A stretch of 8,274 nt of DNA from Phycisphaerae bacterium (lineage in GTDB: Bacteria; Planctomycetota; Phycisphaerae; Phycisphaerales; SM1A02). Both the position numbers and the translations under genes were made by a program. The notes beneath the pieces were generated by a model. It was not told where the DNA came from. It worked only from the letters and a program-made list of their open reading frames with translations, and searched no databases. The stretch lies in assembly GCA_002690755.1 (NCBI GenBank), contig NZFT01000006.1:1583-9856 (forward strand). Reading direction: 5' to 3'. Positions 536 to 2,263 of this stretch are shown one piece after another. Numbering within the stretch: position 1 is the stretch's first letter; each line of letters starts with the position of its first letter.

Positions 536-1243
536 TCACCAGGCGACGGTCCGCTGTCGTCGGGACCGGACACCGGTGGCGCCGATCGCGAGGGCGGCGA
601 GGCCACCGAGACCCGGAACGACGGTGGAAGCGCTGGTCTCCCCGGCTCCGATCGAACCACCGGCGACGTCGTTGTAGGCCCATCCGGTGAGGGTGAGCGT
701 CTCCCCGGTCATGTCCGCGAAGTGCATCCAGCCGAATCTCCGGTCGATCCCGGTACCGAGCGCAAATCCGACGTACCCCCCGTCAGCGTTCCACTCTCCG
801 TGGTACCCATCAACTACGAAGGGATGGCCATGTTTGTCTTGAGCGAACGCGACCAGGGGATTGCCGTTGTGGGTCTGGAGATTTGACGTGCTCAACCACG
901 AAGAACCGTCTGATCCGTCGCTCACCATCTCGTCTTCGAGCAGGCGAACCGGCACGTCGGGGTAGTAATTGGGAACGGACTGAATCAGCCAGAGATTTTC
1001 CGGTCGGTACGTCTGCAGGTGGGCATCCGCCGATACGGGGATGACATAGGTCCAAGTGAAGGGATTCGGCGAGCTCGCTCCGATTACCTTCACGCCGATT
1101 TCGAAGGTCTCACCGGCGATGTCGAACTGGACACTTTCGTTCGTGTCGACGCGCTGGCTGATCGGTCCGCTGTAGATGATGCCGGCGTCAGCACTCATTC
1201 CGACCATCGCGCAGGCAATGAGCGGGGCGGCGAATCGTTGCAT
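536..1243 (-). CDS. Secreted protein with PEP-CTERM-like C-terminal sorting signal
   Basis: The 235-residue product starts at the ATG at 1243, which has AGGAG 8 nt upstream (1252-1256). The frame stays open further upstream without a comparable ribosome site. The first ~20 residues (MQRFAAPLIACAMVG...SADA) look like a Sec signal peptide cleaved after ADA. The body is polar, aromatic and Asp/Gly-rich. Near residues 169-193 it contains RFGWMHF...GETLTLTGWAYND followed by GGSIGAGE, a pattern typical of planctomycete PEP-CTERM surface proteins. The C terminus (residues ~208-235) is VVPGLGG, a short Ala/Leu/Ile-rich segment, then RSRRQR, which is the tripartite motif/helix/Arg layout of PEP-CTERM-type anchors. 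This suggests export and processing by an exosortase-like system, though none is encoded here. I recognise no catalytic domain, and the function is unknown. TACACT at 1310-1315 is a possible -10 element. Confidence 0.8.
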   Translation of the reverse strand: MQRFAAPLIACAMVGMSADAGIIYSGPISQRVDTNESVQFDIAGETFEIGVKVIGASSPNPFTWTYVIPVSADAHLQTYRPENLWLIQSVPNYYPDVPVRLLEDEMVSDGSDGSSWLSTSNLQTHNGNPLVAFAQDKHGHPFVVDGYHGEWNADGGYVGFALGTGIDRRFGWMHFADMTGETLTLTGWAYNDVAGGSIGAGETSASTVVPGLGGLAALAIGATGVRSRRQRTVAW

Positions 1244-1380
1244 GGATCCTTCTCCTGTGGTGTGGGACGGAAACGTCGCTTCAGAGGAGGCTGCACGCCT
1301 CGGTCGAACAGTGTAGTGAATCCGGCCTTCCGTCGGCGGGATCTCTGGAAAGCGGGGAGCCTCCAAAGGGGCTGTCGGAC

Positions 1381-1423
1381 GCGAGTGGAAGGACTCGAGC
1401 CTTCAGCCGCCGGTTTCGCAGAC
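1381..1423 (-). pseudogene. 3'-half fragment of tRNA-Arg (possible attachment-site repeat)
   Basis: These 43 nt match the 3' part of the intact tRNA-Arg at 2191-2233 with only three differences, all transitions (A to G, A to G, T to C on the plus strand). The fragment covers the acceptor 3' strand, the T arm, the variable loop, the 3' anticodon stem and the anticodon loop. Similarity stops abruptly after 1423, so there is no 5' acceptor strand, D arm or 5' anticodon stem, and it cannot fold as a tRNA. One change would turn the anticodon from ACG to GCG and another removes the invariant T54, consistent with decay. It lies on the same strand as the intact tRNA, so the two copies form a direct repeat about 810 bp apart. 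Confidence 0.85.
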
Positions 1424-1504
1424 TGAACACGGACGCTGTTTCCCGATCTGGTTCGTCTCCTTCAACAACCTGTGGCGTGAGCGGGTTGAATCAGTGTCGC
1501 GGCC

Positions 1505-1819
1505 TCATTTGGTCAACGGTTGCCCGGGATATGGCAAGGTTGGAAACAGGCACATGATCCCATTGGTCATGATGCAACCTCCCGCAGCGCTGCGCAGCTC
1601 GGCATCCGAGACCGCCTCATGACCGACGGGCGGGGCAGGCATCGTGATGTGCACGCAGTCGTCGGCGTTCTCCACCACCTTCACGTCGATGCCGTCGGGG
1701 ACGGGCATGTCGTACTCGGCCAGGACGGCCTTGGGATCGCTCATGAAGCGAGCCTTCAACGCCTCGTCCTTCCAGCAGGCGGCAAACAGGGACGCGAGTT
1801 GGTTCTTCTGTTCGGTCAT
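1505..1819 (-). CDS. NHLP-type (nitrile hydratase-like leader peptide) RiPP precursor
   Basis: The ATG at 1819 was chosen because CCGGAG sits upstream with exactly 7 nt between GGAG and ATG; it gives 104 residues. Residues ~8-66 match the nitrile-hydratase-alpha-like leader family: a helical DEALKARFMSDPKAVLAEY segment, then VPDGIDVKVVEN, then VHITMPAPP. SDAELRSAAGG (71-81) follows, a typical double-glycine site for a C39-peptidase-containing ABC exporter. The core would be residues 82-104. It begins CIMTNGIMC and is then rich in Pro, Leu and aromatics, with Cys at 82 and 90, three Thr and no Ser. Such precursors are modified by enzymes such as LanM, radical-SAM, YcaO or ATP-grasp proteins before export; none is encoded in this window. 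The 46-aa gene lies 59 nt upstream on the same strand and may be cotranscribed. The leader assignment is firm, but the chemistry of the mature product is unknown. Confidence 0.88.
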   Translation of the reverse strand: MTEQKNQLASLFAACWKDEALKARFMSDPKAVLAEYDMPVPDGIDVKVVENADDCVHITMPAPPVGHEAVSDAELRSAAGGCIMTNGIMCLFPTLPYPGQPLTK

Positions 1820-1826
1820 CGGTCTA

Positions 1827-1830
1827 CTCC
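1827..1830 (-). promoter_or_regulatory. Shine-Dalgarno site of the NHLP precursor
   Basis: GGAG (within CCGGAG) lies 7 nt before the ATG at 1819. It decides the start over the longer open frame that runs back to about 2071. The same hexamer and spacing occur before the 46-aa peptide gene. Confidence 0.7.
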
Positions 1831-1878
1831 GGTCGCAGGAAAGTGAGACCGCGCTGCGGCAGCGTAGCAGGCGACCGG

Positions 1879-2019
1879 TCACCGGGACAGGTCGGGACTC
1901 CCGCTCGGCGGGTTCGTGGCATTCGTAAGCGTGGCCGGCCGAACCGCTCCGACTTCGACTTCGAAGGTCTTGTTCTGGATGAATCGAGAGAGGGCTTCGG
2001 ACGTGGTGATCGTGGACAT
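1879..2019 (-). CDS. Small 46-residue peptide of unknown function upstream of the RiPP precursor
   Basis: The ATG at 2019 gives 46 residues ending at a TGA at 1879-1881. GGAG 7 nt upstream (2027-2030, within CCGGAG) supports this start over a TTG at 2067. Codon use looks genuinely coding: 35 of the 45 codons after the ATG end in G or C, as in the neighbouring genes. The N-terminal half (residues 1-24, including SRFIQNKTFEVEVG) is amphipathic with alternating hydrophobic and acidic residues. The C-terminal half, from about residue 25, is rich in Thr, Asn, Pro, Ser and Ala and has no Cys. There is no signal peptide or membrane segment. I do not recognise a family. Its position before the NHLP gene, with matching ribosome-site geometry, suggests a shared transcript. 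It could be a second precursor-like peptide, an accessory peptide or a translated leader; a chance frame cannot be excluded. Confidence 0.55.
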   Translation of the reverse strand: MSTITTSEALSRFIQNKTFEVEVGAVRPATLTNATNPPSGSPDLSR

Positions 2020-2026
2020 TGGACGT

Positions 2027-2030
2027 CTCC
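2027..2030 (-). promoter_or_regulatory. Shine-Dalgarno site of the 46-residue peptide gene
   Basis: GGAG (within CCGGAG) lies 7 nt before the ATG at 2019. The site sits between two copies of a 9-bp direct repeat (plus-strand GGACATTGG at 2014-2022 and 2031-2039). As a result the start-codon context CCAATGTCC occurs twice, but only the inner ATG is preceded by a ribosome site. Confidence 0.55.
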
Positions 2031-2190
2031 GGACATTGGGGAATGCCGAAGGCGTGAAGTCGGACAATCAAGATCTCGACCGCCGGTCCGTGGAATACGG
2101 GGGCGGTTCGCTCGGTCTGAGCGTAGGTCCCAGAGACCGTTGCTCAAACGCTGCTGGTGTCCCCGAAAAGCGGGGGGACTGGGGGGGAAC

Positions 2191-2263
<73 letters not shown>

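Follow-up and report, generated by a model that had tools for sequence, protein, structure and literature searches.

The window, the whole 8,274-nucleotide stretch of DNA analysed here, encodes what we identify from its sequence as an NHLP-leader precursor with a conserved core, on which a LanM enzyme encoded elsewhere in the genome would act in trans; the peptide itself is of an already known type. The novelty sits in the recurring tRNA-fragment setting of the NHLP precursors, which is worth following. We consider it probable that this precursor is modified in trans by the LanM of its genome and exported through a C39-type route, and that it lies in a tRNA-Arg-bounded stretch of 766 bp likely inserted by site-specific recombination. 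The window corresponds to positions 1583-9856 of contig C127 in the draft genome G000 (3.47 Mb, 133 contigs, 88.8% complete, 5.9% contaminated). The host is likely a marine planctomycete, and the relatives of its genome are presumably marine.

The reading frame of the precursor starts with an ATG at 1819 on the minus strand (Table 1), and reading 1505-1819 on the plus strand gives a translation unrelated to the precursor. Residues 4-81 matched the TIGR03793 leader_NHLP profile (57.5 bits, E 9.2e-16, curated cut-off 50.9), and the precursor also matched Pfam PF02979, the nitrile hydratase alpha chain (33.2 bits, cut-off 27.2). The leader ends in Gly-Gly and a divergent core follows, the cores varying among the precursors of this genome, as is characteristic of the NHLP type. 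An earlier note on this DNA had called the leader NHLP and had named failure of a profile search as an outcome that would speak against it; the profile placed the leader in the family. The Gly-Gly that it put at residues 80-81 and its description of a 23-residue core agreed exactly with the translation: two Cys (82 and 90), three Thr (85, 94 and 103), no Ser and a Pro/Leu-rich end. The Nif11-type leader model TIGR03798 was not listed for the precursor at E values up to 1, and thus the leader is not of the prochlorosin kind.

Table 1. Features in and around the predicted cassette, in window coordinates.
Feature	Position	Strand	Basis
NHLP-leader lanthipeptide precursor gene, 104 aa + stop	1505..1819	-	ORF, profile matches, 96% identical orthologues L078 and L180
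Leader, residues 1-81, Gly80-Gly81 at its end	1577..1819	-	TIGR03793 match over residues 4-81
Core, residues 82-104: CIMTNGIMCLFPTLPYPGQPLTK	1508..1576	-	ORF translation and 15-sequence alignment
GGAG, Shine-Dalgarno-like, 7 nt upstream of precursor ATG	1827..1830	-	Sequence reading
tRNA-Arg (ACG), predicted insertion target at 3' end (2190)	2190..2263	-	ARAGORN; Rfam RF00005, 71 bits
Copy of tRNA-Arg 3' half, predicted second attachment site	1379..1423	-	Direct repeat; similar fragments at other precursor loci
Predicted cassette, 766-bp stretch from tRNA-Arg to its 3'-half copy	1424..2189	.	Repeat coordinates
Cassette end ('arm') running into tRNA copy	1412..1498	-	Five-arm profile

Orthologues with the same core, 96% identical, were found at L078 (genome G004) and L180 (record JAAELU010000340.1), and a protein search with precursor residues 65-104 only returned 9 proteins. 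The window precursor and these two orthologues were aligned with 12 database proteins, drawn from 19 precursor-like ones that were read. Across these 15 sequences Cys82, Met84, Thr85, Cys90, Pro93 and Thr94 were invariant and Thr103 varied; the rows were chosen by eye for having this core, and this selection accounts in part for the invariance of its hallmark residues. The core was retained on leaders of varying sequence, and in these 15 sequences, chosen for it, it has the conserved Cys plus Ser/Thr make-up of class II lanthipeptides. The earlier note had asked whether Cys82 and Cys90 are conserved: both were kept in the orthologues, and homologues lacking the Gly-Gly site and core, which it had set against its own reading, did not appear.

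By the Nei-Gojobori method, dN/dS for the whole precursor was 0.031/0.348 against L180 and 0.025/0.141 against L078, and for the 23 codons of the core it was 0.038/0.316 and 0.058/0.227, respectively, with four changed codons in each comparison. A decayed, non-functional precursor remaining in an old island would have parallels in the degraded NHLP copy that adjoins the orthologue in L078, in the genome G006, where the equivalent site holds apparent remnants only, and in the absence of Cys from the core in a third of complete precursors. Such decay is nevertheless most unlikely here, with an intact frame, a core common to 15 sequences and dN below dS in three pairwise comparisons. The proportion comes from 57 complete precursors in the loci of nine genomes, 38 with Cys plus Ser/Thr in the core and 19 without Cys; the count excludes open, partial, duplicate and X-containing rows, the leader-only proteins L026 and L031, and L033, L037-L039, L042, L049 and L057. 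The Cys-less precursors, noted at L027:5024-7479 among other places, include several with very short cores in the array on the LanM contig.

On reading the ORFs of the window we saw no modifying enzyme or exporter, as the earlier note had stated. The term 'orphan' that it gave the precursor holds locally and fails genome-wide: G000 encodes a LanM, NHLP-type export proteins and nine further NHLP matches of at least 46 bits. Of the ten such matches, six are on contig C123; C113, C41, C129 and C127, the contig of the window, have one apiece. The C123 LanM scored 517 bits against TIGR03897 (cut-off 304) and has DUF4135 and LANC_like domains. The same contig encodes an ABC protein with a C39 peptidase domain (PF03412), which at 747 bits does not reach its curated cut-off of 853, together with an HlyD-type adaptor (TIGR03794, 185 bits, cut-off 156) and a TolC-like protein (PF02321) that is also present on the near-copy C133. 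A second ABC protein (ABC2) beside the LanM reached 641 bits, under its curated cut-off of 709; it and the TolC-like protein were scanned in their C133 copies. This set, encoded away from the window, agrees with the supply of maturation in trans that had been predicted, and the search that the earlier note had proposed for further NHLP leaders, LanM and C39-ABC genes found all three, so that its adverse outcome, a genome with no RiPP maturation gene, did not occur. Contig C123 terminates within its NHLP array, and over 247 nt the DNA of the window precursor is 87% identical to that of one precursor on the LanM contig. C123 and C133 are a near-identical pair, as are C113 and C129; each pair likely reflects strain variation at a single locus of the draft genome. 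A second precursor copy, cut off at the contig end, is present on C129 and absent from C113.

Co-occurrence was assessed at curated cut-offs in 61 genomes, G000 and 60 relatives. TIGR03793 exceeded its cut-off in 10 of them (11 had any match at E 0.001) and the LanM model TIGR03897 in 9 (14 at E 0.001, the five extra matches being weak, the best with 149 bits in G016). A LanM above cut-off was found in 9 of the 10 precursor genomes versus 0 of the 51 others; the sole precursor genome without one, G004, has a completeness of 68%. Neither an NHLP leader nor a LanM above cut-off was found in G002, a member of the same genus. Each of the nine genomes has one LanM above cut-off, present in G000 as two near-copies.

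Of the chemistries offered in the earlier note, Thr/Cys thioether formation is favoured because a LanM is present, and radical-SAM crosslinking is disfavoured because the SPASM radical-SAM model TIGR04085 found nothing in the 89% complete genome; nor did the YcaO models, for which that note had also proposed a search. There is a very slight chance that the precursor belongs to a different RiPP class, with radical-SAM crosslinks, azolines or N-methylation, whose enzyme either falls in the part of the genome that is missing or is of another family, such as ATP-grasp or a further radical-SAM family. The draft state of G000, in 133 contigs, leaves room for this, as does the range of the searches, which covered YcaO and SPASM. 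Against it stand the two empty searches and the identity of the co-occurring enzyme, which is LanM in nine of ten precursor genomes.

A CCG motif marks substrate-tolerant ProcM-like LanM enzymes, ProcM carrying CCG for CHG. The same replacement is found in the cyclase of the G000 LanM, which, aligned to LicM2 (6st5), has WCAG for WCHG and CCG for CHG, at positions that we take to be zinc ligands. The favoured product is a methyllanthionine peptide made in trans. LanM would bind the precursor leader and dehydrate the conserved Thr85 and Thr94, and perhaps Thr103; up to two methyllanthionine rings would then form through Cys82 and Cys90, the ABC exporter would use its C39 domain to cleave after Gly81, and the product would exit via the ABC/HlyD/TolC route.

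The earlier note did not mention the tRNA-derived repeats around the precursor. A 45-nt direct repeat (2189-2233 and 1379-1423, 93% identical, spacing 810) joins the tRNA-Arg gene to the copy of its 3' half, which matches the layout of tRNA-targeted integrative elements, with the target tRNA at one end and its 3' part directly repeated at the other. No tyrosine recombinase of the kind that such an element carries was seen in the window. Tandem duplication of the whole tRNA was rejected as the source of this repeat, because the copy comprises the 3' half only and the same truncation recurs with other tRNAs. Two other genomes have sequences similar to the arm at 1412-1498 ahead of four Arg-ACG fragments; of the five alike arms, three come after a precursor with the core of the window (hereafter CIMT precursor) and two do not. 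The arm of a sixth Arg fragment (L067) was not clearly similar, and when the fetched loci were scanned with a profile made from the five, no additional arm turned up; the arm is thus not common to the Gly and Ala fragments. Within the predicted cassette, a 46-aa ORF (1879-2019, minus strand) had no family match. Just outside the tRNA copy, an ORF at 536-1246, minus strand, looks by eye like a secreted protein with a C-terminal anchor-like end; its family matches are weak, below cut-off, and L078 retains the stretch with 96% DNA identity. Viral carriage of the precursor was set aside, a pattern scan with a reach of close relatives having found no relative among viral contigs. A phage collection gave 743 matching records for 1380-2270, and the 20 of them listed all match the tRNA end.

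We then compared this setting with the other precursor loci. The sample comprised 45 loci (300,575 bp) from nine genomes, leaving out G014, G035 and matches in G001 (C254), G005 (C54), G007 (C123, C217) and G013 (C8, C3), and was searched with 53 tRNA sequences of the group. Besides intact tRNAs, 15 tRNA fragments were found in 12 of the 45 loci. Fourteen start at tRNA position 26-39; 11 end at the last tRNA base and 3 more within 2 nt of it. The 22-nt fragment of L060 is not attachment-site-like, which leaves 14 3'-half fragments in 11 loci, of which L028 and L030 are near-copies. An intact tRNA lay within 1.5 kb at 12 of the 45 places, against about 2.1 expected from 46 tRNAs per 3.3 Mb (binomial 6e-7, independence assumed; 4.7e-6 with same-core places collapsed by hand to 10 of 37). 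The genomes were found to have 38 to 44 tRNAs each, and the density assumed is therefore not an underestimate. The nearby tRNAs are of eight species (Arg-ACG, Leu-CAG, Pro-CGG, Gly-GCC, Ser-GCT, Ala-TGC, Lys-CTT and Arg-CCT). With Pro-CGG as the one exception, the precursors follow the 3' end of their tRNA (11 of 12 cases), and seven tRNA genes would be used at their 3' ends; precursor and tRNA share a strand in 7 of 12 cases and are opposite in 5. Counting fragments, 19 of the 45 places are tRNA-linked (18 without L060). At the remaining 26 (27 without L060) no tRNA and no fragment lies within 1.5 kb; some of these are LanM-linked or at contig ends.

Two controls were used. In 18 loci of 8.2 kb (147,600 bp), hand-chosen from the interiors of long contigs of G003, G005 and G006 and possibly repeat-poor, we found 0 tRNA fragments and 0 intact tRNAs; against these, Fisher's test by locus gave 0.013 for fragments (12/45, including L060) and 0.006 for intact tRNAs (14/45). 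The second control consisted of the 30 top-scoring tRNA loci from four genomes, many of these loci being orthologues, with 1.5 kb on each side. NHLP genes were present at 3 of its 4 Arg-ACG loci and 3'-half fragments at 2 of 4, as compared with 0 of 26 other tRNA loci; the remaining short matches fall in the D-arm within the tRNA itself.

In L028 (5053-10922), three 3' fragments of tRNA-Gly(GCC) delimit a precursor-bearing stretch and another of 4.8 kb whose ORFs look by eye lipid kinase-like and phosphoesterase-like. In L180, the stretch at 774-2994 between two tRNA-Arg fragments beside the CIMT precursor has ORFs that look by eye like a membrane protein and a helix-turn-helix regulator.

These data are consistent with precursors that likely travel as small tRNA-attachment-site cassettes, moved by a putative recombinase. 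A tyrosine recombinase, acting on the part of tRNA genes from the anticodon arm to the 3' end, would have placed the cassette of the window. A different reading is that a functional lanthipeptide precursor was spread by ordinary duplication and homologous recombination, the tRNA neighbourhood being a general hot spot. We regard this as unlikely, even though several observations suit it: the window repeats are 93% identical, so not recent; tRNA-fragment-bounded stretches at L028 6122-10876 and L180 774-2994 hold other ORFs; no cognate recombinase was found in G000; and 26 of the 45 precursor loci are without a tRNA link. Against a general hot spot stand the second control, where NHLP genes and 3'-half fragments were confined to Arg-ACG loci, the attachment-site-like extent of 14 of the 15 fragments, from tRNA position 26-39 to no more than 2 nt short of the 3' end, and the position of the precursor 3' of the tRNA in 11 of 12 cases.

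The tRNA-Arg gene adjoins nuoN in four genomes (G000, G003, G005 and G006), and the content of this syntenic site differs among them. Past the tRNA 3' end, G000 has the CIMT precursor and the tRNA copy. G003 has a precursor with a different core, in the opposite orientation and with its own 100% tRNA fragment, and G005 has an integrase-like ORF with one complete precursor and another truncated at the contig end. At the G006 site only short stretches resembling NHLP remnants were found (best 13.8 bits). In L078 and L180 a CIMT precursor is followed by a tRNA-Arg fragment; the remaining neighbours are different, and farther away there is another tRNA-Arg fragment. The integrase-like ORF of G005 matched the PHROG integrase family phrog_1 (48 bits, E 2e-12), had no Pfam match, was present in 1 of the 9 genomes and had 2 homologues in the protein collection; its structure model (mean pLDDT 36.7) was unusable, leaving the integrase identity unconfirmed by structure. 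Searches of G000 with phrog_1 and PF00589 returned two integrases only, on contigs without listed precursors. Besides the G005 ORF, phrog_1 gave two matches in each of the eight genomes searched, on contigs without a listed precursor, and we take these pairs as putative Xer proteins.

The NHLP family was defined by Haft 2010 (PMC2887384), in which, as far as its main text goes, NHLP genes lie beside export and LanM genes, LanM adjoins NHLP in Nostoc, and precursors far from their enzymes are noted, in some genomes away from the cyclodehydratase. The present system resembles that of Nostoc in its Gly-Gly NHLP leader, its several precursors, its LanM and its C39-ABC/ABC/HlyD set, and differs from the systems of that text in that many precursors are dispersed, a good part of them adjoining tRNA genes; the word tRNA has 0 occurrences in the main text of PMC2887384. 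Prochlorosins (ProcA/ProcM of marine picocyanobacteria), which passages of PMC10783134 describe as served by a solitary LanM, likewise combine conserved leaders, multiple diverse cores and one LanM. The differences lie in the leader, which is NHLP here and not Nif11, in the planctomycete host, and in the link to tRNA fragments as opposed to the TnpAREP transposases to which, by the title of a preprint cited in PMC10783134, cyanobacterial lanthipeptide genes are linked. How a promiscuous LanM acquires many, changing substrates is discussed there without being settled, horizontal transfer and core insertions and deletions both being proposed. Tycheposons and additive flexible genomic islands also carry cargo adjoining a tRNA gene, and parts of PMC10872708 describe an island marked by tRNA 3'-end repeats and put tycheposons, elements with a tyrosine recombinase, at 4-200 kb; here the unit can be as short as 766 bp, contains a single precursor and showed no recombinase inside. 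No title among those listed in our search, which lay mostly outside subscription journals, reported precursor cassettes at tRNA genes.

Integron gene cassettes are small single-gene units stacked between short recombination sites. The units described here are similar and differ in their repeats, which are tRNA 3' halves and not attC. The recombination proposed for the window may also have brought cassettes with other cores to tRNA genes throughout the genus, and a single, fixed set of enzymes would then serve exchangeable substrates. Somewhat tentatively, we propose a swappable core library, in which single-precursor tRNA-bounded cassettes are inserted, stacked and exchanged at the 3' ends of no fewer than seven tRNA genes around a fixed CCG-type LanM and exporter. 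If true, natural products would be diversified by a tRNA-based analogue of the integron. A good part of the substrates lie between tRNA-derived repeats, with a syntenic site whose content differs among four genomes, and this offers a concrete, testable route by which precursor genes spread and get replaced independently of the enzyme. Further precursors could be sought at the 3' ends of tRNA genes, besides the surroundings of LanM genes.

Proteins with more than one leader domain were also observed. Adjoining LanM, L026:6740-7144 (on C123 of G000) and L031:9811-10215 encode two NHLP-like leader domains in tandem with no Gly-Gly or core; such a coreless protein could be a leader-like regulator or decoy. 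At L060:4000-4494, L066:4026-4520 and L192:607-1908, two leader domains are followed by one common core-like tail (AKTGARSL or ARTGARSL), and double-leader proteins with this tail occur in two genomes and in a record titled AG-333-L23.
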